From contig JAJTUQ010000004.1 in assembly GCA_021399445.1 (NCBI GenBank), positions 6,863,902 to 6,927,901 of the forward strand: a DNA stretch of 64,000 nucleotides, written 5' to 3'. Source of the stretch: Xylogone sp. PMI_703 (Eukaryota > Ascomycota > Leotiomycetes). The position numbers and the translations under genes are program-made. How positions within the stretch are numbered: position 1 is the first letter of the stretch; each line of letters begins with the position of its first letter. Shown here in pieces: positions 1 through 64,000 of the stretch. Under the pieces are notes generated by a model that made no database searches, was not told the DNA's origin, and was given only the letters and a program-made list of their open reading frames with translations.

Positions 1-150
1 TGCATTTCGCATAGTAAAAAAAATCAATTTCATCGTAACTATAATACAAAATATTCCCCCTCCTCTGATATATCTGATTCTGATGAAGCTAACATTGAAT
101 TGTTTGAATCGCTTGAATCGCTTGAATCGCTTGAATCTACTGATTTATAG
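1..150 (+). pseudogene. C-terminal tail of an acidic protein cut by the window edge
   Basis: Frame 1 is open from the first base to a TAG at 148-150 and gives 49 residues. The tail is rich in Ser, Asp and Glu and ends in a short Glu-Ser-Leu repeat encoded by four tandem 9-nt units (about 103-138). Such tails are common on transposon-encoded proteins, but no domain is visible, so the family is not recognised. The body of the gene lies outside the window; whether it is functional cannot be judged. Confidence 0.35.
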
Positions 151-893
151 CCATCTCTATTAATATTCAAGCTTATATATTCCTCCTCCTCCTCCTTTTC
201 CTCCTCTTTTACTCTATTACCCTAAAGGAAGTCCGCGCTTATACAGGTATTACTCCCTGTATGATCTCCTTGCCCTGAGGCAATATATTTACCTCTTCCG
301 GTGGTCCAGACTCGATCTGTAGGCCTGTATTTGCTAGTTCAGAGCTTTGAACTTCTTTCCCAGGCTCTAGGAACAGTGAAAGAGTATACTCTTTATACAA
401 AACCAGAGTGCCTAGGATATTATTCTACTCTTTTAAGGCTTTCTTTCTAAGCTTTTCCTTTTTGCGCTATGCTACCCAAATAGCTTTTTGTTCTTTCTTC
501 TTCTGGTTAGTTATCTTTTTCAGTATTCTAGCTTCTTTATGTTATGAACCAACCAGGATATATATAGATGACTAAGTTATTACTCAGATCCCGGTTGTAT
601 AACAGCCAAACCATTACTGAAATCCTAGGACCTAGGCGGTCCCAGGATGGGATAGCTCTTAAGAGGCTCGCTTCCGGGACCAGTAGGATCCCAGGAGTTA
701 GTTCCTAGGAATTAGGGGTTCCCAGGAGTGTGAGACTCCCAGGATTTGGCGAGTGCCCAGATTAGCTAAGCCGATCAGTTGGATCAGCATTAATCGTTAT
801 GATCGGAAGAATCAGTTAAGATCAGGACTGATCGTACTGATCGAGGAAAAGTATAATCTTTAATAATATTATATAAAGAATATAATTCACTGT
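151..893. other. Degraded transposon-like sequence, no intact gene
   Basis: Read on the minus strand from about 540 to 235 there is a lysine-rich then proline-containing coding relic interrupted by TAG codons; it resembles the end of a transposon protein but is not assignable. From about 540 to 890 there is a moderately GC-rich stretch with many CCTAGG and CCCAGGA repeats, possibly an old LTR. No start, complete frame or RNA gene is seen. Confidence 0.35.
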
Positions 894-1140
894 TGTGGAA
901 GCGATAGTATGAGCATAACAATAACGCTGGCTAGAGCATACAGGAATAGAGTTTATACGACGGGATTATGCAGAATCATATAAATAACAAATACATAAGG
1001 TAAACGAATAAATTACTTCTTTGGTTGAGTATAAAAAGGTTGTTGATTTATTATCCGGGACTTGTTATTAATATATATTAGTTTGGCTTAATATAATTAT
1101 TATTAATATATAATAGGTTTTTTTATTACATATGTTTTTT
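894..1140. repeat. RIP-eroded solo LTR, family A
   Basis: This segment aligns along its whole length with the better-preserved LTR at 36183-36419. Almost every difference is C-to-T or G-to-A. It starts TGTGGAAG and ends TTATTACA where the other copy ends CTACCACA. No target-site duplication can be recognised, so it may be a solo LTR or a remnant of a larger element. Confidence 0.7.
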
Positions 1141-2221
1141 AGCATATTATAGGTCTCCTGACTATAATATACTCTAAAAAAAAGAAATACATCTAAACAT
1201 TCTACAAATAACTGGCCTTCTGAGGACTTTAGCCTTGAGCCAAAGTCTTCCTGAGTTCTTTTTATTCCTCCATTTTTACATTTTTACTGGTACTCTTGGA
1301 GCTTTTCTTTGTAATAACAAAGTATTCCTTAAATAACTTTTTCTTGATTTTCATCTTTATTATATATATTTTATATATAGCTGCTATGGCCTTTTTCCTT
1401 TATTTTATTATATAATTATGTTTTTCAACGAATAATCTGAATAACATAATATTTTTCTTAATGATTATAACAGAATTATTTTATCTTTGTTGTCTGATGA
1501 TTACTTTAAACAATATATTAATACTTTTTAGCCTTATATCAAATGAAATACGATGATCTGGTAATTCTGTTACTAGAATAAACATCGAGTATTATATTTT
1601 TCTTATTAACATTTCTCGGTTAACTTTAAGTACTTCTTAATACTGTACCTTATCTAGTTCATTTCCCAGGAACTGATAGTAGTTGTTTATATATGTAAAC
1701 TAAGAGTATATTATTACTCTTTTGATGTTTACTTTTTCTGGTTCGAATATAATTATGTACTTTTTACTGAAAAATATTTCTTTTATCTACATCTAAGTAT
1801 TCTTTATTACAAACTTTACTTAGTACTTTATTGATTATTTATTTCGAAATTACTCTTTTCTCGTCTTATATAACCTGATCTATAAGATTATTAATATATT
1901 TATAACTTTTTATTATTATCGATGTTTATAATGATTTACGTTGATCATATATTAATATTATACAGTTTACTTTGTAGGCCATATTACTTTAGGTTAAAGT
2001 TTGGCTTGCCCTCTTGATTCTAAAGTTAATTTTTCTTAAAAAGTTTATTTATTTATACTTTATTCTGGATTTTATATATCTTATAAAGATTAGTCATAAT
2101 ATTACTTTTGTTTTTTTGTCATTTTATAATATAACATATTTTAAGTATAATAATAAGTCCTGACGTATAATTTGTTATATTATAAAAAAAGACATAATTA
2201 TAATCTATTTATTTATGTTTT
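1141..2221 (-). other. AT-rich transposon relic, minus-strand coding traces
   Basis: Strongly AT-rich. The minus strand shows a stretch of residues with protein-like composition broken by TAA and TAG codons, but no retroelement motif I can name. It is not the missing part of the gypsy polyprotein found on the other side of the copia element at 7923, which matters for the copia insertion history. Confidence 0.3.
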
Positions 2222-2451
2222 TGTTAGGAATTATGGGAGCAGAGCATACTGGCGCTCGGTAGTTATGCGATCGGAGTGGAACGACTAATAATCCGGTAAG
2301 AGAGTATTTAAGGGTGCAACCCCTTAAATACTAGATATAAGAATAAGCATACAATGTATAAGCCAATATAAGCCTATTCAACCCTACAATACGGTAGTGC
2401 CTAGTGAACCAACACTTCCATAATATGAGCCTAATGGTCATAATCTTCACA
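2222..2451 (+). repeat. 5' LTR of the copia element
   Basis: TG...CA boundaries, promoter-like AT-rich middle. It holds a perfect 12-bp inverted repeat, AGTATTTAAGGG at 2303-2314 and CCCTTAAATACT at 2321-2332, with a 6-nt loop. The same hairpin is in the 3' LTR and survives in the RIP-eroded copy at 13474-13720. Confidence 0.93.
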
Positions 2452-2836
2452 GGTTATGAGCCCGGACGCATGTTGAGGCGTCACTAGGAAGAATAGCAGT
2501 TGGGACGTGTTCACCGTAAGTCTATCACCAAGGATAGCCAAAACACACGTTGCTGCACAAGTCTTTGTAGAAGAAAGAAGTCTGCAGAGCATCGGTTGAA
2601 ACGCAGACCGATCGGTTCCAAGTCTTGAAACGGGTAGACGTGCGACGAATTGTCGGTCTACAGCAAGTACTTGAAGATCACGGCCCCTTAATCGGTATCG
2701 GGCACCTTGGCGTGATACTTACCTATTTATCTAAACCCAACAGTCAATTATAGGTCTCTCTAACCTTGAGTTACGATACGACAGCTCAAAAGACGACAAA
2801 ATCTTCATCATCCTTATCTCACCGACATTTGAGAAG

Positions 2837-5800
2837 ATGGACACCGATCACCTTGCACGCAAACGCCCTGCTGGCATCCTTAGCAGAGCGAATTGGCAAG
2901 AATGGTTTAAACTGATGAGACTCTATTTCAAGGGAGAATCGCTAGAATTTGTGCTAAACAAGACAATCACAGAATACGCCTGGATTCAGAGAACCCCATC
3001 ATCGATCAATACCCCTGTTACACCAGCAAGCACGAAAACACCCGAGATCACTATTGAAGGTGTAGCAAAACAACTGGAGAGCTTGAAGGTGGAGGATGGA
3101 CTACAAAGTGGATCAAAGGATGGCATATGGAATATTGAAAAGCAAGAGAAATATGAAGCCGCGTCTGCGAAGGTTTTATATATGATTTCAATCTGTATCG
3201 ATGCCATGGACAATGAACTGATCCGCGACGAGTCTGAAGCTCAACTGGCATGGACAAAGCTATACTCCAAGTATAGCAAGTTACTACCTCATGCTGCTCG
3301 AAGTGAAATGGCTCAACTCACCTCATTCAAGTTAGAGCAGGGCATGACAATCGAAGAGGGATGGATCCGAGTACAAGAGTTGAGGAGGAGAGTTGTGAAG
3401 GCAACCCCTGAACTCAAGGATGGCTTTAGCACAAAGCAAATATTCGAATTCTTTCTTGCAGGACTCCCAGAGGAATACTCGACAGTTACAACTGTGATCG
3501 ACGCACAACCGACACTTGAAATCGTGGACAAGATCGATATCCTCCAAAGACACGAAGAAAAGGTCACCAACTCAACAGCCCTCGCTGCTAGAGACAAGAG
3601 AGCACGAAGATCACAAGATAAAGGGAGCAGAAGCTCAAGTCGACGGAGCGGACATGAAAGCAGCTCGCCCGACCGAAAGGACGTTAAATGCTATTTGTGT
3701 GACGGAAACCACTCCATCAAATATTGTAAACTCAGGCGTGATGCGAGAAAATATGTTCTTGGTCTCAAATCCAAGGATAACAAATCACGACACTCTCCAA
3801 AGGCAATAAGAGATGACGAGCGCAAGAGTCACCGCAAAAGCAACAAGTCCAAACGTCATGCCCATGGTCACATGGCCGGTCACTCCTCCGAGTCTAATTC
3901 GACGTCGGAGACGGAGTCAAGTTTTGATGACTCATCCGAGGAGGAGGACGAAGTTGCAGGAGTTTCAAAGGAAGCAATGCGTATGGTTAAACCTTCCGTC
4001 TGGATTGCAGACACAGGCGCTTCTTCTCACATGACTGACAACCCCCAGCTCTTTAAACAACCGATGGTCGATATTAGACGTCGTGGAATAAAGGTTGGAG
4101 GAGGAAGGTTATATGCATGGAAGAAGGGGACCGCTGAAATGAAATTGAAGGATGGAAGTACTGCATTGTTGTCTGATACTTTACTTGTTCCGAACCTTGG
4201 GGCTAATCTCCTCTCTGCTCGACGCGTTTGCGAAAAAGGTTTTGATGGCTCTTTTGATCCACATGCAATGTATTTTACTCGAAAGAATCAAAAGAACCAG
4301 TACATTAAAGCCAAGCAACGCGGAGGAGTGTACATTGTGAGTTCTATCGTGAATGGGCCAAAGGAAACAGCTTTGGTTGGTGATGTTAAAACGGAGGAGG
4401 GACAATCGCGATTTAACCCGCCCGGCGGGGAAAATCAAAATTCTGACAGTGACACTGAAACCTCACCCACACTGGCACCAAAGTCAGTGGAGAAAGTCAC
4501 ACAACGCTATAATTTATGGCATAGACGATTCGCTCATCTTGGAGTAAAGAAAATCTGTAACTTACACAAGGTTACCACCTTAAGCAGGCCAATACGAAAA
4601 CCCATAACTAAGGAACCTTGTGAAGTCTGCGACTTCACCAAGATGAAAGATCGTGTTAATAAAGCGTTGAGTGAGTGGGAGAGTAAGAGGCTTGCACTGA
4701 TCTACGTGGATGCATGTGGACCGTTCCCACCATCAATAAAGGAAGACCGATACTTTGCTCAAATTGTTGATAGCGCCACTCGTTACATTTGGAACATTCC
4801 TGCAAAGACAAGAGCACATTTGGTCGAGAAGCTCAGGACATGGAAGATCCAAGTAGAGTACGAGACGGAGGAGAAAGTCAAGGCCATTAGAACTGACAAT
4901 GCCTCGGAACTACTATCACTACTAGACGAATGGAGCACTTCGATCGGGATTCGGGCAGAAACAACAGCAGGGTACAAGTCAAACCAGAACGGTCCAGCTG
5001 AGCGAGCAATCCAGACAACTACAGCAGATGCTCGGGCATTGCTGAAGGAAGCTAGCTTACCGCTTGAATTCTGGAACTACGCTGTTGAAACGGATGCATA
5101 CCTGAGAAACCGAACAGCATCTGGCCCGACAATTGATGGGAAAGTTGTTAGCCCGTACCAGGCATTCACCGGAGAGATCCCAAGCATTGATCACATCAGA
5201 GTTTTTGGATGTAAATGCGTGTCATACGTCAACCGAAAGGAGCACCCGAAGGAATCAAGAAAAGACAAGCTTATGGACCATGGACGGGTTGCAGTGTTTG
5301 TAGGATACAATCCAAACACGACCAAACAATATAAGGTCTATGCGCCAGACAGAGGCTGTGTCATCAAATCAAGCCGCGTCAGCTTTTATGAAGACATCCA
5401 AGGCGGAACAGTTGATTTGAAACTTCGGACAGGTGATCCTCAAGGAACAAGGAACGAGCTGGCAATTCGTAAACCAAGAGGTCGACCACAAAATGAAGTC
5501 ATCGAGTCTATGCCATTCCCAGATCCGAAAGACTTGAATAACTTCGAAATTGTGATCCCGTCCATTGCGAATCCAGTGGTAACACGTAACGATCCAACCA
5601 GCCCAGCCGGCCGTCAACATGATCAGGAAAATGCAAGCGATCCAAGCGTGAATGTGTCCCATCCAGGAGGAGATGAGGGAGATGAGGAAAATAAAATTAG
5701 GGATCAATCTCAGGCCCAAGCCGAGAACCATGATTCACCACCTGGTGCTAATATAGCATCACCTATCGAATTTCACCCGTCCGGCGGGGAAAATCAAGCA

Positions 5801-7616
5801 CCACCAGAACCCGTGGAAGCGAGGTACGATCTTCGAAAGCGACAGAGACTCGATGACTCTGATGATGAAGACCGTCCTACCAAGATAGTTAAAGCCATGC
5901 TTGCAATGCTGGAAGATCAAGATTACCAAGACCCAGACGAGATAGCTCTGGCCAGTTTAGTAACAGATCTAGATATTGTCATCCCAATGACGTACAAAGA
6001 GGCCATTTCAGATCATAGATATGGTCAGAAATGGAAGGAGGCAATTGACGAAGAGATCGCATCATTACAGCAAAACGGCACATGGGAAGAAGAAATACCC
6101 CCGGAAGGAGCGAACTTGGTCTCCACCAAATGGGTATTCACTATCAAGACGAACCCCGACGGGACATTAAACAGGTTCAAGGCAAGACTGGTTGCTCGAG
6201 GCTTCTCTCAGAAATATGGGCAGGATTTCACTGAGACGTTTGCACCTACGGTTAGAATGGATACTCTTCGGATATTCATGGCCATTGTTGCAGCGGAAAA
6301 CCTTGAATGCCACTCGTATGACGTGAAGAATGCTTTCACCGAATCACACCTACGAGAACGAATCTTCCTGTCTCAACCAGACGGAGTACCCAAGTTAAAG
6401 AACGGGTACGCATTACGTGTCCTACGGAGTTTGTATGGGCTAAAGCAGTCCGCGCGGGACTGGAACCTACTCTGCAAGAGTTATCTCGTTAAGATTGGAT
6501 TTGTCCAAAGCTTAGCTGACCCTTGCCTTTATATCCACAAAGAACGCAAGATCATATTACTCGTTCACGTGGATGACATCGCTGCTGCTGCACCAAGAGT
6601 GCAAGAATTGGAATGGTTTGGAAAGACATTGGCAGATCGATTCCATACCAAGAACCTGGGGGAGATTCAAGTGATCCTTGGTATCCGTGTTACTAGGAAT
6701 CGAAAAGAGAAAACACTATTCTTAGATCAAGAACAATACCTGGATAACATTTTGAACCGATATGGAATAACTCAAGAGAAGCACAGGCCAAAGTCAGTGC
6801 CAATCTCTAGTTATGACAAGCTACGCCCGACTTCAGACTTTGACAAGAAGGCAAACCTGACCGAGTATCAAGAGCGCATAGGAAGCCTGATGTACGCGAT
6901 GATAAACACCAGACCAGACATCGCGTTCGCTCTAGGCAAGCTTAGCCAGTACATGAGTAATCCTGGAGAGCACCATGCCAGTGCCGTAAAGGAACTCTTG
7001 AGATATGCCAGATCAACGATCAAACAGCGAGTCCGTTATGGGCCAACTCCAATTCAAGCCAACCAATCGTCACGCCAAAGTAATGACGACAACAGACAAG
7101 CCGGTAGCTCTACACTAGTCATGTATTCAGATGCAGACTGGGCAGGAGACAAGACCGACCGGAAGAGCACTTCAGGAAACGTAGCCATGCTTTACGGAGG
7201 GCCTGTTTCCTGGGGGGAGTAAGAAGCAACGTTCAGTGGCAACTTCAAGCACTGAATCAGAATACATTGCAATGTCAATGTGTGTCAAGCAGAGCCAATG
7301 GATCGCTCAAATACTCCGTGATATGGGATTCCCTCAATATATTGGGTCAGACCCGATGACTGTACAAATATTGGGAGATAATCAAGGCGCACTCGCGTTG
7401 GTAAAGAACCCACACCTTCACGAGCGATCAAAGCATATTGATATCTGTTACCACTACATCCGCGACCTAGAAGAGCGTAAACGCATTATCGTCAGCTACG
7501 TTCCCACAGCAGATATGGTAGCCGATGGCATGACAAAGCCGTTGCAGAAGACAATGTTCATGCGGTTCAAGGAACTACTTGGTCTGGCAACAGTAGGAGC
7601 AATTAAGAGACAGTAG
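2837..7616 (+). CDS. Copia Gag-Pol polyprotein with one frameshift
   Basis: Starts at ATG 2837, 385 nt after the LTR. Gag has a zinc knuckle CX2CX4HX4C near residue 285. Aspartic protease follows with DTGASS near residue 392. Integrase has an HHCC-type region near 515-605 and the catalytic triad D625, D687, E722. Reverse transcriptase covers about 1050-1290, with the catalytic Asp pair at about 1246-1247 in the context VHVDD instead of the common YVDD. RNase H spans the end. The frame is interrupted at a run of six G (7212-7217): the first frame stops at 7222, and 7236-7616 continues the RNase H domain in the next frame. Removing one G would make one frame, so this is either a mutation or a homopolymer sequencing error. 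Confidence 0.93.
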
Positions 7617-56902: not shown

Positions 56903-57690
56903 TTACTCATTGTCCTTTTCCGGGTCTGCCAAGGCAGTAGCCATGGGATCCTCGGTTTTGTAGTCATGCTCCTTGAGTCTAAGAGATTCAACATAGATAT
57001 GTTCGTCCTCCTCAGCTGTATAGTTATAGGTATCGAGCAGGCCTTGTACGGCTTTGACAAGCCAACACTCATGCTTACGAGACATACACAAAAGGCTGCC
57101 GAATAAGCAGGTTAGCAGGGGGCCATTCGGGGGCGAGGTAGGAGTGACTTACTGTAGTACAATATCCATATCCCGTCGGAGATGGCGGACATGCTTCGTT
57201 ATTGAGTTCTAGGCCTGGCCGCTCTTAGCCATATCCGATTTGATGAGGGTAGACTTGGCCAAGACTTGCTTGATATTATGCTTTGATGGGGTATTATTTA
57301 CGTCCATTAACTGTTGGCGTTTTGCTGGCGTTCCACTGGCGGCAGGTCTTTCATGATATTATATGTTCAGAGGGGAGGAGAGCTCCGGTCAGCCAAGGCT
57401 AATTAGCTAATCAGGCACGAACGACAGAGGGGAGGGAGATGGTGCAAGGGAGTGAGTAACCAACTTACCTTTAGGCTATGAAAAGTCTTACTGTAATCGT
57501 AAGACGTCTTAACGGCAGCATTAACGGCAATCTGCTCGTCTATGGTCTACTGGCTATAGAGAATCTCTGTGTTCTTCGTTAGTACTTGATTGTAGCCAGC
57601 AATGGCGCGGACAATGGTATTAGTCTCTATGTAGAAAGCTCGGATTAAACGTCGTGTTATGTGCACACACAACAAGTTGTATGTAAACGG
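56903..57690 (-). pseudogene. Divergent multi-exon gene of unknown family with two TAG codons
   Basis: Minus-strand exons read smoothly. Exon 1 (about 57690-57479) includes RLIRAFYIETNTIVRAIAGYN and ends at a GTAAGT donor. Exon 2 (ending 57153) includes NNTPSKHNIKQVLAKSTLIKS. A 57-nt intron (57096-57152; GTAAGT, GCTAAC branch, CAG) joins in phase to exon 3, which has CMSRKHECWLVKAVQGLL and ends DPEKDNE at 56903. One TAG in exon 1 (near 57555) and one in exon 2 (near 57215) break it. The first acceptor is uncertain. No domain is recognised; helical and charged. It is head to head with the recombinase-helicase gene, about 110-150 bp away, so the two may share a promoter. Confidence 0.55.
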
Positions 57691-57755
57691 GGATTGGTCA
57701 GATTAAGGTTTTGAGGCCCGTGCAGCGAGAAGACGTTTTGTGAACACACAACAAG
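57663..57755. promoter_or_regulatory. Direct repeats between the divergent genes
   Basis: CACACAACAAG occurs at about 57666-57676 and 57745-57755, each preceded by a GTTTTGTG-like or GTTATGTG-like block, giving two about 24-bp imperfect copies 79 bp apart. The position between divergent genes suggests a binding site; this is inference. Confidence 0.4.
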
Positions 57756-57803
57756 ATTAGGGTTATACAATAATCCACGAAATTTAATGATTTGACATCG
57801 AAA

Positions 57804-60800
57804 ATGAATTCAGCATATGAAGTTAGACCCATCCCCGAAGTTTGGAGCGATATAGTCCATTTGAACGTGAAGTATAAGGTGTTGTTGTGTTTGAGCGACC
57901 GGTGCAACAAAGCGGTCAGCGCCCGTGGGTTAGTAGAGCACATCCGCAGGTATCACGACGTCAAGCCAGCAATCCGGCGTCAAATCGAGCGATATACGAA
58001 AGAATTCAAGCATGATTACAATTACGCGACGATTCCCATTCCCGAGAATGGTTTGGCACCACAGCCCATCATCCCCATCGTAGATGGATACCAATGTAGA
58101 GAGTGTTCGTATATCACCCAAAGCGACCAATATATACGACGGCATGCAAATAAGGACCACGAGAAAAAGCGAACAACCATCGACGAGATATGTACCAGAG
58201 TACGGTTGCAAACATGGTTTCGGGATGGCAAAGAGCGATATTGGGTGGTGGACGAGAGCAAGCAGGCCGACGAGGAGTATCAACGTCGCCAGATCACCGT
58301 CCCCGACGTGGGAGAAGTCGACAACAACCCGGTTGACGGAGAAGGGCCAGATGAGGAAGTCCCAGCGTGGGTTTCGGCCAGTGATCCAATTGCCCAAGAG
58401 ATCCGGGCATGGGAGATAGCCAAGCAGGAGCATCGTGCAACATTGTTAGCCACGGTGCCGGCCGACGAGTGGGATCCATGGTTGCGGTTTACCGGATGGA
58501 ATACAGTATTGCAGCAGTCCAAGCATGATTTGGTCAAGACACATGCGTTCAGTGAAGTAGCCAAGCCAGAGGAGCCACAGTTGTGTCGATTGATGGCGGC
58601 ATGGGGCCGGATTTTGGAGCGGTGTTTGGATACGTTGGCCAGCGTGGACCACAAAGATGCATTAAAGTGGTGGAAGTCGCCGAAAAATGAGGTGGCCCAC
58701 CAGCACCCATTTGAATTACACCAGAATTCAAAGTCAGTGGACCGGTGCAGCGAGGATTGGCAGCGGTTTATATGTTACGCCATGCGCACGGCGCCAGAGG
58801 AGGAGGGAGGTGAGACGGGTAAGTAATGAGTTTTATTCGTACCATTGGAGAGTATGATTATGCAAAGGAGCCCATTCGGAAAGGCATATCAAAAGTTGGA
58901 CGTGCAGAAGGGGTTTTCAAGAAGGGATTAACCCAGCGGCAAAGGCGGTATTTAAATCATTTAGGAGTTAAGAAAATGGTCAAGTGATCAATTCAGAGCC
59001 GAGAGGTTAAATCATATAGGATTTAAGGGCCAGCGCCAGTAACCGAAAGGGAGGCCAACCCAGCCAATGTGTAAAGTACGTTAAATCATGTAGGATTTAA
59101 GGGCCGGCACCAAGCCGGATTTTTTTTTGCATGACGTATACGCCGGAGAAAAAGGATAGATGTTAACGGTGTACAGAGACAGGAGTCACGTTCACCAGCG
59201 GCCAGTGGAAGTGTATCAACCGCATACGTGAGTGGATGGAGGAGAACGAGGATCCCGACGAGCCCACGGCCGAAGACGACCCATTGGCCGATATGTTGAT
59301 GTGTTTGTGCATGTTGGTGTTAAAGCAGGACACCAGCCGGATGCCGTTGTACGAGTCGCCGTTGATGCATTATATGGCGGTCCGAGGAATCGACGTCAGC
59401 GGCCCACGGTTACGGTCATCCATGCAGTCGACGCCCACGATGGGACGCATATTGTGGATCGGGCGATTGATCATGTTAGAGGTGGCGGTCCCATTGGTGG
59501 GGTGGCCAGCATTAGGGTTGCAGGCCAGGCACGAGTTGCGGTCCGTCCCGCAGCGGATCCAGGAGATTCGACGACACCATTTGTGCGAGGGGTCGTATTC
59601 ACCAATATCCAGCATTTTGTCGCAGTTAGCCAAGGGCAAAAAGTCCAACGATGAACATCAGGAACCGTCGAATATCCATTGGTCCCACGACGAAGAAACG
59701 ATTTATTATCAGGGACCAGGAATCCGGATGGATAGTTTACGCAGGATGTGTCGGAATTTAATTAGCGAATTAAGAATATTAATTCGAGAATTGATGTTTG
59801 ACCAGCCACCACCCACGATTGATTTGACGACAATCGAGGATTCGATGGCGTGGAATACGCATTTTCGACGAGTTGAATATAATTTTATTGAGAACGTCAA
59901 AAATCAGAAGCAGTGCAAAGTTGGGTGGGAATATTTGTACCGGCGGGCACGGCAGAAGGGCGGACCATGGTCATTAATCAAGCGGGCAGCAGATGGGACG
60001 GAGACGTGGAACGAGTCACAGAAGAGAGGGTATTTAAACCGGGAAAGGGAGTTTTTGCGGAAGTTGATGGTGACGATGCATATCACAGGAGGACAGCCGG
60101 CGCGGGGGCCGGAGATCGGGTCGATCAAGGTCAGCAACAGCGTATATTCGGCACGCAACATATACGTGATCAACGGGCAGGTATGTTTTTTGACGATGTA
60201 CGACAAGTCACGCAAACGGCGAGGCAACACGGATTACATCGTGCGATTTTTACCAACGGCGGTCAGCCAGATGGTGGTACAGTATTTGGTGTACGTGCGG
60301 CCATTCGCGCGGGCATTAGACCGTCGCGAGTCGGAGTATTTGTTCGCGGACGAGGGCAAGCCGTGGGCAGGGGAGGAGTTGAGCAATCAGTTGGCCAAAG
60401 ACAGCCAGAGGTATTTAGGAGTGCGGTTGACGACGCGGGGATATCGACAGGTGGCGATCGGGATAGCGGTGCGCAAGTTGGGACGGGCCAGCCGGACGTG
60501 GGAGAAGGAGGAGGGAATGAAGGGGGAGGAGGAGGACGAGGACGAGGGTGAAGAGGAGGAAGCAGAGGGAGATGGAGAAGAGACAGGAGGATTAGCATTG
60601 GATACGTTTCGACATGCGTTGATTCGGTGAGTGATTTTTATTTTTTTATATTTTTTATATTTTTATATTTTTATTTAATATTTTTAATTTTTAATTTGGT
60701 TATTTTATCATACAAAAAGATAAAAGGAGAAAGTTGGTAATAGATGAGGTTAGCAAGTAGGGAGAGGGTGAGAGTTGGCAAGGGCCACAGTGAAAGCAGA

Positions 60801-63294
60801 GTTTAAATCATACAGGAGTTAAAGGAGTAGAACAGTCAAGTGATTGAACAGCGAGAGGTTAAATCATACAGGAGTTAAGGGATAAGCACAGCAGCCAATC
60901 AGAAAGCAAGGCATTAAATCATAAAGGATTTAAGGGCCACGTTCGTACAGTGGTTACGTATTTGAACACATCAATGTCACATATTCAGGAGGTTTAGCAG
61001 ATTGAGTAAAGATTTGGGTTGACAAGTTATACAGGCAAGCCGGGCATCAACGACGCGTCGCACAACAGCATTACGCCATCGACGGGAATTTTTTGCATCG
61101 ATTGGGGCCAGAGTTGATCAGCGTGTTCGAGCAGGCATCAGTCAAGTGGCATGAGTTTTTGGAGTTGGAGACGATGAGCACATGGTATTATGCCACCGGC
61201 AGCAAAGGTGAAGTAAAACGTCGGACCAAGCACGAGCGAGGCATCAGCGAGGAGTTGATGAGGTATAGCATCCCACGACGTATCAAGAGAGAGCATCAAG
61301 TTAAGGCCGACGCGGACCAGGCCAGAGGCGTCCATCACAAGAAAGCCGCGCAAGCAACGAGCAAGGCAGTCCAAGGGATCCGGGCGATATACGGACCACA
61401 AGGACGATTCAAGTCGGTGGAGCAGCAAGAAGCGATGGAGTTTATGCATCACGGCCATACAACATCGATCATCGTGTTACCGACCAGCAGCGGCAAGTCA
61501 GTGTTGTTTTTTTCGATGGCAGCAACGGTGGTACAGCAAACGGTAGTAGTGGTGGTTCCATTTGCAGCATTAGTGGATGATATTATGGAGCGTGGACGAG
61601 AGGCCGGATTGAATTGCGAAGAATGGCGAGATGAGCACAGTGGTAAGGAGTTACAACAGTTGATAGTGGTCAGCGCAGACCGAGCCGTCAACGGGCCGTT
61701 TTTGCAGTATGCGCAAGGGATGCAGATCCGGGGACAGTTGGCGCATATGTTTTTCGACGAGTGCCACGTTGCAATCACAGACATATCATACCGAGCACGA
61801 TTGCGAACATTGTGGCAGTTACGGTATATTGGGTGTCGATTTACGGGGTTGACAGCGACGTTGATAGTAGATTTGGAGTGGATATTACGAGAGCAATTGT
61901 CGATTGAGGGAGCGGTATTATTTCGACGACATACAGCACGGCGGACGATTCGATATCGGGTGATTGACAGCAAGAATGAGCCGCCATTCGAGGTTGGGAT
62001 TCGAGTTGTGCAGCAATTAGGAGAGTTTTCGGGCAACCAGGGTGGGATTATATACGTACGTAGTTATGCGGTGGGCGAGAAAGTTCAGGAAATATTGGGA
62101 TGTCCGTTTTACAAGGCCACAGCGGAGGATAAAGGGGAGATGTTACAACAGTGGATACGGGGAGAGTGGAGGGAAAGGAAGGAGAGAAGTGAGACAGAGG
62201 AGACCGAGGAGGGAGAGGAGAAGCAGGAGAGAGGGATCGAGGAAAGAAGGACAAGGGGACAGGGGAAGGGTTGGATCGTAGCCACAGGAGCGTTGGGGAC
62301 GGGGATCAACATCGAAGGCATCCGATACGTCATTCACATTGACCGGCCATACGGATTGACGAGTTTCGTACAGCAGAGCGGACGTGGAGGACGAAGTGGT
62401 GAGGTGAGCGAGTCGATAATCGTAGTTAATGTCAAGCACACGCGGCCATTCAAGGGGGAGGAGGAAATTACGGCGTACAGCGTGGAGGAGGTAGACGAGC
62501 AGGCAATGACAGAGTATATCCAAAGTCGACCATGTCGACGGATAGTGTTAGGACGGTATATGGATGGCGTGGTGCGAGTGGATTGCGGACGGGTTGACGG
62601 GGTGTTGTGTGACGTATGCCACAAGAGAGCAGCACAAGAGCAGTACATCCGGGAAGAGGAGGGAAGTAAGGCAGAAGAAGACGGAGGAGGAGAGGGAAGA
62701 GAGGTGAGGTTTGAAGGAGAAACAAGTGAGTCAGGGATTGAACGGGAAGAAGAAGAAGGGCCACGGGTGGAAATTCGACAACGGTTGGGGATGGAGGAGA
62801 TGACGGATGGGGAGATGTTTTGGGTGATGGGGGAGTTGCAGAAGAGATGTATATATTGCGAATTGACGCAGGAAGGCGAAGCAAAGGCGGAGATTCACGA
62901 GTACACGGATTGTGAATTGGCGTCACGGGCAGGATGTGGAATGGTAGCATACGAGCAATGGCGAGAGGAGGTGCGGTTAGACGTAGGGCAACAGTGTTGG
63001 GAGTGTGGATTGACGCAAGAGTTGTGTCGGCGCGTTGAACGAGGGTTGGCGGAGTGTGAATATTCGATGGTGATGTTGGTGGGAATATTCATCATGATGC
63101 AGCAGGAGGCGGGATGGAGGAGGATTGGATGGGACATTGGATTTCGAGGGCAAAGTCGGAAGGAGATAGTTCAATGGATGGGACAGTGGGAGGCGAATTG
63201 GTGGGTGGGAGGGCGATGGGAGAACAATTGGATGCGAGTGTGGCGATGGATATGTCGATTATACGTGTACGAGCAGGCGGAGCGTTACGGGTGA
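57804..63294 (+). CDS. DUF3505 zinc-finger / tyrosine-recombinase-like / RecQ-like helicase fusion
   Basis: Three exons (57804-58818, 59177-60626, 61035-63294) join in phase to 1574 residues. ATG 57804 is preferred over an in-frame TTG at 57792. Two C2H2-like fingers of the DUF3505/OrsD type lie near residues 30-60 and 95-125. Residues about 640-840 look like a tyrosine recombinase: ARGPEI with Arg near 647, a K in YDKS near 680, RGYRQ near 757, GHQ with His 826, HYAID with Tyr 835. Then comes an SF2 RecQ-like helicase: LPTSSGKS near 971, DECH near 1064, GLTAT, ATGALGTGIN, QQSGRGGR near 1268, CRRIVLG and CDVC zinc-type cysteines, and a C-x2-C-rich tail. No frame damage. Leucine is TTG or TTA only, where read. 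Probably nuclear; role in DNA integration or telomere maintenance is inference. Confidence 0.85.
58819..59176 (+). other. Intron 1 of the recombinase-helicase gene, repeat-bearing
   Basis: A 358-nt intron, GTAAGT at the start and a TAAC-containing branch region before TACAG at the end. The last exon-1 base and the first two exon-2 bases form one codon, and the frame holds. It is long for this type of genome and carries three copies of the TTAAATC/GATTTAA repeat (58950-58971, 59006-59031, 59081-59105). Confidence 0.75.
58950..59105 (+). repeat. TTAAATC-GATTTAA repeat cluster 1
   Basis: Consensus of all eight copies is about GTTAAATCATAYAGGAKTTAAGG. In the best copies the arms TTAAATC and GATTTAA are perfect inverted repeats around six bases (ATATAG at 59006-59031). 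The first copy of each cluster has GAGTTAA instead, the later ones GATTTAAGGGCC. Confidence 0.8.
60627..61034 (+). other. Intron 2 of the recombinase-helicase gene, repeat-bearing
   Basis: A 408-nt intron from GTGAGT to TATACAG, again in phase: two bases from exon 2 and one from exon 3 form an Arg codon, joining HALIR to QAGHQRR inside the recombinase domain. It carries three repeat copies (60802-60823, 60857-60880, 60913-60937). The surrounding blocks (CAAGTGAT..., GCGAGAGG) also match intron 1. Confidence 0.75.
60802..60937 (+). repeat. TTAAATC-GATTTAA repeat cluster 2
   Basis: Three copies with the same order and spacing as cluster 1; the first two are about 56 bp apart in both clusters, with a shared AAGTGAT spacer block between them. 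Confidence 0.8.
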
Positions 63295-63453
63295 TGAAAG
63301 GAGATTAAGAGTTGTGAGATCGGGACAGTCAGGAGAGAGGGAATGATTAGAGATTAGGATTGGGTAGTCAAATCGGAAGGAAAAGGAAACGGGAGAAGCA
63401 AAGGAAGAAGCAAAAGGAAGGGTAAAAGGAAAGATGTGAATGATAACCAAGGA

Positions 63454-63494
63454 GATTGCGAAGCAATCAAGCCAATAGCATCGGCGCGAAGCGC
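63454..63494. repeat. GCGAAGC double hairpin, copy 1
   Basis: GATTGCGAAGCAATC at 63454-63468 is a perfect hairpin with GAA loop; GGCGCGAAGCGC at about 63483-63494 is a second one. Both centre on GCGAAGC, known from biophysical work as an exceptionally stable DNA mini-hairpin. The two are separated by the shared AATAGCAT block. Confidence 0.8.
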
Positions 63495-63567
63495 ACAAGG
63501 GGAGAAAGGTGAAAAGATATGGATTTAACAATAGTATCAAGGTAAGGGAAAATAAATTAAATAATAT

Positions 63568-63574
63568 AAAGAAA

Positions 63575-63610
<36 letters not shown>

Positions 63611-63622
63611 GAAGAAAGAAGA
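63568..63622. repeat. GAAA microsatellite
   Basis: About twelve GAAA units with a few variants in the purine-rich 3' flank of the large gene. Confidence 0.85.
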
Positions 63623-63678
63623 TGTTAGATTAGCAGTTTACAGGAAAGGGAGATAATTAAACAATTAGAAAGCAAGAA

Positions 63679-63757
63679 GTTAAATCATATAGGAGGTAAG
63701 AAAGTAGTATAAGTAATCAATTAAAGAGCAGAAAGTTAAATCATAAAGGATTTAAGG
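63679..63757 (+). repeat. TTAAATC-GATTTAA repeat cluster 3
   Basis: Two copies in the 3' flank (63679-63700 and 63735-63757), again about 56 bp apart with an AAGTAATCAATT spacer block like CAAGTGATCAATT in cluster 1. Confidence 0.8.
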
Positions 63758-63887
63758 ACAGTAATTATAAACAGTTAAGAGAAGAATATAATAATACAAA
63801 ATTAGATGTATAAAAGGAAATTTGAGAAAAGAAAAGTTGGGAGATAAAGCAAAAGGAGTAATTAATAATCAGGATTAGATATTCAAG

Positions 63888-63928
63888 GATTGCGAAGCAA
63901 TTAACCCAATAGCATCGGCGCGAAGCGC
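63888..63928. repeat. GCGAAGC double hairpin, copy 2
   Basis: Same layout as copy 1, 434 bp downstream: GATTGCGAAGCAAT then CGGCGCGAAGCGCAC. The spacer keeps CCAATAGCATCGG. Flanks (GATTAGGAT upstream, GATATGGATTT or GATATAGATTT downstream) also match, so the region is a diverged tandem repeat of about 434 bp. Confidence 0.8.
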
Positions 63929-64000
63929 ACAGAAGAAAAAAAGGGGTAAAGATATAGATTTGGCAATAGTACAAAGTAAAGCGTAAAGGTATAAAGTAAA

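Follow-up and report, generated by a model that had tools for sequence, protein, structure and literature searches.

What is a single gene with DUF3505 zinc fingers, a tyrosine recombinase (YR)-like region, and a RecQ-like helicase doing at the end of a fungal contig? The gene lies in the stretch analyzed here (the window), which is the last 64 kb of contig C20 (6.93 Mb) of the Xylogone sp. PMI_703 assembly (50 Mb in 25 contigs). A first-pass annotation had suggested a self-mobilising or chromosome-end element, a proposal that gains support from the exact left end at differing flanks and the terminal location described below. The gene product is, as good as certainly, a telomere-linked helicase (TLH); it unites zinc fingers, a predicted tyrosine recombinase whose catalytic set is complete, and a helicase of the RecQ type in one chain, and in the Xylogone genome the element that carries the gene has one exact left end. 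On balance, and with modest confidence, we favor the reading that the TLH gene supplies the coding sequence of a terminal YR-RecQ DNA element, and that this element becomes attached, by its left end, to chromosome ends that have been broken or eroded. In the window, the element is laid out as follows:

57639..64000, + strand: whole element in the window (element positions 1-6362), between its left end and the end of contig C20 (from BLAST of contig ends and reading of junctions)
57639..57657, + strand: terminal sequence CTCGGATTAAACGTCGTGT, the exact left end (from 17 left ends and 16 flanks)
57804..58818, + strand: exon 1, OrsD/DUF3505 zinc fingers (residues 18-119; gene model and Pfam)
58819..59176, + strand: intron 1, with three copies of a 22-nt motif
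59177..60626, + strand: exon 2, helical N-terminal part and predicted YR catalytic core (codons for R648 at 60103-60105, K682 at 60205-60207, and R762 at 60445-60447)
60627..61034, + strand: intron 2, with three copies of the 22-nt motif
61035..63294, + strand: exon 3, remaining predicted YR residues H826 (codon at 61045-61047) and Y835 (61072-61074), helicase (residues 952-1277), and Cys-rich C-terminal part
63295..64000, + strand: 3' tail, running toward the telomere; it contains the 22-nt motif twice, as well as two 44-nt repeats

The gene is a telomere-linked helicase

As first read, the three frames join in phase over two GT..AG introns into an undamaged protein of 1,574 amino acids with no stop. 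The coordinates given then (57804-63294, + strand) hold for the gene; the whole unit is wider, reaching from 57639 to the contig end at 64000. Of the possible donor/acceptor combinations, 21 stay open (1,561-1,574 aa), and the last acceptor is identical in every one. At the junctions adopted here, the protein reads ETETGV and RQAGH, both in agreement with the homologue consensus; thus, the two splice points are backed by homology, not RNA.

Pfam detected OrsD (PF12013) at residues 18-119 (E 1.7e-12), ResIII/DEAD at approximately 952-1099, and Helicase_C at 1218-1277, all over cut-off, which bears out the DUF3505 fingers at the start and the SF2/RecQ-like helicase at the end; nothing passed the Pfam cut-off between residues ~120 and 950. 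When a homologue profile was compared with proteins of known structure, BLM (4.1e-64), RECQL5 (6.8e-64), and RecQ (2.5e-62) were matched by sequence. A search with residues 380-900 identified 83 proteins, of which 82 have OrsD and/or helicase domains. They include proteins from Pseudogymnoascus (62% identity), Botrytis, Geoglossum, Cryomyces, Parastagonospora, Elsinoe, and others, as well as Pyricularia oryzae TLH5 (E 2.4e-11). Searching again from TLH5 returned 47 proteins, 45 of them new, with Purpureocillium, Colletotrichum, Fusarium, Alternaria, and Penicillium among the sources. These relatives mark the gene as fungal and place it in the telomere-linked RecQ/DUF3505 family that the first-pass annotation had cited as known.

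A predicted tyrosine recombinase core conserved across the family

The annotation had also pointed to ordered YR residues in the middle of the protein (R in ARGPEI, K, RGYR, GH, HY). They are present in YR order, as R648, K682, R762, H826, and Y835, and are conserved across homologues: the homologue alignment has R in 74/75 letters, K in 75/75, the second R in 84/84, and Y in 80/81, and the corresponding counts in 45 other homologues are 44, 44, 45, and 45. The full R-K-R-H/W-Y set (H, R, or W at the H site) occurs in 71/72 and 43/45 readable sequences, and H itself stands at that site in 63 of 80 homologues and in 44 of 45 in the second set. The predicted fold of the catalytic core aligned best with tyrosine recombinases (VIA-align), so that the unlike fold envisaged as the other outcome did not occur; in fold and in the residue order R-K-R-H-Y, the core resembles Cre, XerH/XerA/XerD, and topoisomerase IB. 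Tyrosine recombinases were absent among the matches listed for this fold by plain Foldseek. The box II histidine (HxxR) is not conserved, position 759 being S, L, R, A, H, or Q in the alignment; this histidine varies in some active YRs. No Pfam YR family, including those that we take to represent the YRs of Cryptons and Starships, was found for the window protein (6 families at E ≤ 1) or among 25 of the 36 families listed for 28 homologues. It is very probable that the middle of the window protein folds as a YR whose active site is conserved. Because the recombinase set was found across the TLH family, the OrsD-YR-helicase fusion is not peculiar to the Xylogone genome.

Six Botrytis cinerea TLH models (P0001, P0033, P0038, P0040, P0041, and P0042) lack the stretch with R and K and keep R, H, and Y; this gap is perhaps a wrong intron call. 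Xylogone itself has a second TLH-like family of two internal copies (L037/L042 on C22 and L039/L041 on C24; 94-96% identical). In both, the finger and YR regions are present and similarity fades before the helicase region is reached; no clear-cut ends were read for this family.

One exact left end at differing flanks

Five copies of exon 3 (on C20, C8, C14, C17, and C24) encode identical protein (100% over 748-752 of 752 residues); a sixth copy runs off the end of C9, and C5 carries an older one. BLAST of the contig ends showed that the copies are 99.4-99.97% identical in DNA from one start base, 165 bp upstream of the ATG, and that the DNA upstream of this base differs. A genome-wide pattern search for CTCGGATTAAACGTCGTGT gave 15 exact matches, none with one mismatch, and 8 with two or three, against 15 matches at up to three mismatches for the reversed pattern, which served as the control. 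On reading, all 15 exact matches proved to be left ends, one of which (C12:8166508) is followed by only ~27 bp of the element. Two of the eight mismatched sites, both on C12, were read and are older left ends with changes of the repeat-induced point mutation type; the other six were left out of the count. The 17 known left ends have 16 different flanks because C14 and C5 share one. Twelve of the 16 flanks have no match to the element (five of those judged on only ~100 bp), the other four consist of element sequence that breaks off at positions 84, ~477, 755, and ~3,820, and no consensus is visible in the flanks. One exact end to a TLH-bearing element is what is new here.

The flank of the C12 contig-end copy (L058, first 100 bases) gave no BLAST match to this element and by eye resembles a Cys-rich TLH C-terminus (CWEC...). 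In that case, the C12 junction would likewise fall within a TLH, one from a different family.

Serial arrays

The four flanks that are element themselves belong to arrays. On C5, an old copy (75-91% identical) breaks off at ~3,820, with a second left end immediately after it; the copy that starts there breaks off in turn at 755, where a third left end begins a copy equal to the young ones over its 308 bp. On C14, a 755-bp piece precedes a full copy, and C12 has an old copy cut at ~477, a next copy cut at 84, and then a further left end. Such a layout would be expected if elements attached again and again to a chromosome end from which distal DNA was lost in the intervals. C14 and C5 agree in every base over ~210 bp upstream of the 755 junction, and therefore this junction may have been shared through recombination.

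On the one hand, such sharing can be read as exchange between chromosome ends, and subtelomeric repeats are commonly explained by spread through homologous recombination or break-induced replication; the near-identity of the TLH copies fits this explanation, in which the YR would be a relic or a DNA-binding module that takes no part. On the other hand, homologous exchange would not yield one exact boundary at 16 flanks, 12 of them without a match to the element, and a relic is unlikely to retain R, K, R, and Y at the frequencies given above. We therefore consider ordinary subtelomeric spread an unlikely account of the element.

The distal side

On eight contigs (C5, C8, C9, C12, C14, C17, C20, and C24), a copy points outward and reaches the contig end. 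No unique DNA was seen beyond these copies (C12 having been read up to its last 88 bases), nor was a right end against unique DNA seen for this element family. On C8, C14, and C17, a tail of ~1.2 kb leads into G-rich repeats that resemble degenerate telomere repeats, and no perfect run of four TTAGGG units exists anywhere in the assembly. C8 ends in GGGTTC units, and at the place of the C, C14 and C17 tend to A; GGGTTC is perhaps a miscalled GGGTTA and looks like a base-calling or assembly artefact. The other five contig-end copies stop inside the element, and therefore assembly breaks at a repeat are possible for those five. However, a two-ended dispersed repeat would also give contigs that start in the element and exit through its right side, and there were none among the genome matches examined. 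Thus, the other side of the element appears to be the chromosome end. Older, contig-internal copies exist on C3, C14, C25, and C12; in the C25 copy, similarity stops at element position 2,175, and no new left end follows. C9 has a further RecQ-like helicase frame with one stop (L017, C9:4649-5815); it lies ~700 bp behind the left end of the C9 element copy, and its reading direction is away from the contig end.

An exact start and a tail that runs into telomere-like repeats could also arise by way of RNA. The left end, 165 bp upstream of the ATG, would then be the transcription start of an unspliced RNA reaching the telomere, and a DNA copy of this RNA, which if full-length would stop at the RNA 5' end, would be captured at breaks. 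However, both introns are retained in the six young copies that span them, and the element protein has no reverse transcriptase, the trait of telomeric retroelements (HeT-A, MoTeR, FoTeR, and terminons), at E ≤ 1 in Pfam. Moreover, the terminal 19 bp are more constant than the DNA behind them, a comparison biased by the use of this pattern to find part of the copies. RNA-borne capture thus seems very improbable.

Repeats and motifs inside the element

The element holds several short repeats:

57656-57676 and 57735-57755, + strand (element positions 18-38 and 97-117): two 21-nt repeats, each an imperfect inverted repeat
57757..57765, + strand (element position 119): TTAGGGTTA, telomere-repeat-like (read from sequence)
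58951-59101, 60802-60934, and 63679-63756: copies of the 22-nt motif GTTAAATCATANAGGANTTAAG
63454-63497 and 63888-63931: 44-nt tail repeat, 95% identical, with two GCGAAGC hairpin-like units

The diverged C5 copy has a perfect 20-bp palindrome at the place of the first 21-nt repeat; the inverted symmetry of these repeats is not significant in the window copy and clearly significant only in one older copy. TTAGGGTTA is found at the same place in 12 of the 15 left ends compared. Together with the two 21-nt repeats, it may serve as a recognition or seeding sequence. GTTAAATCATANAGGANTTAAG has eight copies in the window (three per intron and two in the tail), mostly ~55 nt apart, and occurs nowhere else in the window (0.05 expected); four of the eight have the inverted arms TTAAATC-N6-GATTTAA. 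Genome-wide, 56 matches with up to two mismatches were found, compared with 2 for the control; 46 lie in six young element copies and 5 near other TLH-like hits. The motif may bind a protein.

The 44-nt repeats, along with the single exact end, are reminiscent of Helitron anatomy and raise the question of whether an enzyme encoded elsewhere (Helitron-like or another transposase) moves the element, with the TLH gene as cargo. However, these repeats barely outfold shuffled sequences (z -2.0 and -1.6; 8 and 17 of 200 shuffles as good). The element protein has no Rep/HUH or DDE domain in Pfam (Rep not even at E ≤ 1), its helicase matches the RecQ type in the homologue profile, whereas Helitrons join Rep/HUH to a Pif1 helicase in one protein, and it already has the complete YR set. 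Movement by a foreign enzyme is therefore improbable.

The view that nearly all other large genes in the window are broken was checked in part: of the six stop-to-stop frames of at least 250 aa, three are the TLH exons and one is an open Ty1/copia-type pol frame (1,495 aa, 2735-7219), which speaks against it.

A proposed mechanism

The architecture, YR-like fold, conserved catalytic set, exact left end, differing flanks, outward orientation, and serial arrays can be assembled into a tentative scheme for a terminal YR-RecQ element. The protein would recognize the left end by its terminal 19 bp, by the repeats that lie in the first 120 bp, or by both, and the recombinase would cut exactly at position 1 through Y835. 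The cut left end would be joined, with little preference for any target sequence, to a chromosome end that is broken or eroded. The helicase would open the donor DNA, chromosomal or free, or assist its copying, and the element would be copied, or carried, through to the telomere; copying is favored over excision because near-identical copies lie on many contigs. The recipient chromosome would thereby gain the element plus a telomere, and later distal loss followed by a new round would give the arrays of truncated copies and new left ends. We think it reasonably probable that the YR itself makes the exact left end.

Comparison with known systems

Other TLHs (Pyricularia TLH5, Ustilago UTASa, Fusarium TLHcr, and Colletotrichum DHX_G198) likewise combine OrsD/DUF3505 with a RecQ-type helicase and likewise show one orientation and near-identical copies; they also have a terminal position, as the Xylogone element appears to have. 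The window protein shares the catalytic-core fold and the R-K-R-H-Y order with Cre, XerH/XerA/XerD, and topoisomerase IB, whereas it adds zinc fingers and a RecQ-type helicase, its box II histidine is not conserved, and no target consensus is seen. Cryptons and Starships are eukaryotic DNA elements that encode a YR and have two ends at internal sites. Like them, the TLH element is YR-coding DNA without a reverse transcriptase; in contrast to them, it has one exact end and, apparently, a chromosome end. Drosophila HeT-A/TART and rotifer terminons are retroelements that attach serially to chromosome ends by one exact end. The TLH element resembles them in its probable serial one-end attachment and in distally truncated older copies; however, it codes outward, keeps its introns, and encodes a protein without a reverse transcriptase domain.

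Passages of the TLH literature record subtelomeric RecQ genes from several fungi, beginning in 1998 with Ustilago (cited in PMC5576322), full copies of the Colletotrichum higginsianum TLH in subtelomeres only and in the same orientation (PMC5576322), and, more generally, truncated copies, a location in subtelomeres, and a function presumed to lie in telomere maintenance (PMC12857005, PMC5576322, PMC10532341, PMC8381367, PMC4522978). These passages contain no description of an exact proximal end of TLH copies. The word "recombinase" is absent from five TLH papers (PMC10532341, PMC8381367, PMC12857005, PMC5576322, PMC7473861), and a search of a limited collection found no literature joining TLH or telomere terms with tyrosine recombinases.

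Implications

The YR set and the exact proximal end turn a guessed role in telomere maintenance into a testable mechanism. It is conceivable, if somewhat doubtful, that the TLH genes of filamentous ascomycetes in general represent a separate class of one-ended, telomere-terminated mobile DNA in which a YR-RecQ protein joins the left end to breaks. If true, the TLH family would be mobile DNA that makes chromosome ends, and a helicase-fused, one-ended type would be added to the tyrosine recombinase elements. This would bear on telomerase-independent survival, subtelomeric gene loss and gain, and variation from end to end. The TLH element would then be a selfish cap that supplies a new telomere-bearing end, a DNA-based counterpart of HeT-A.
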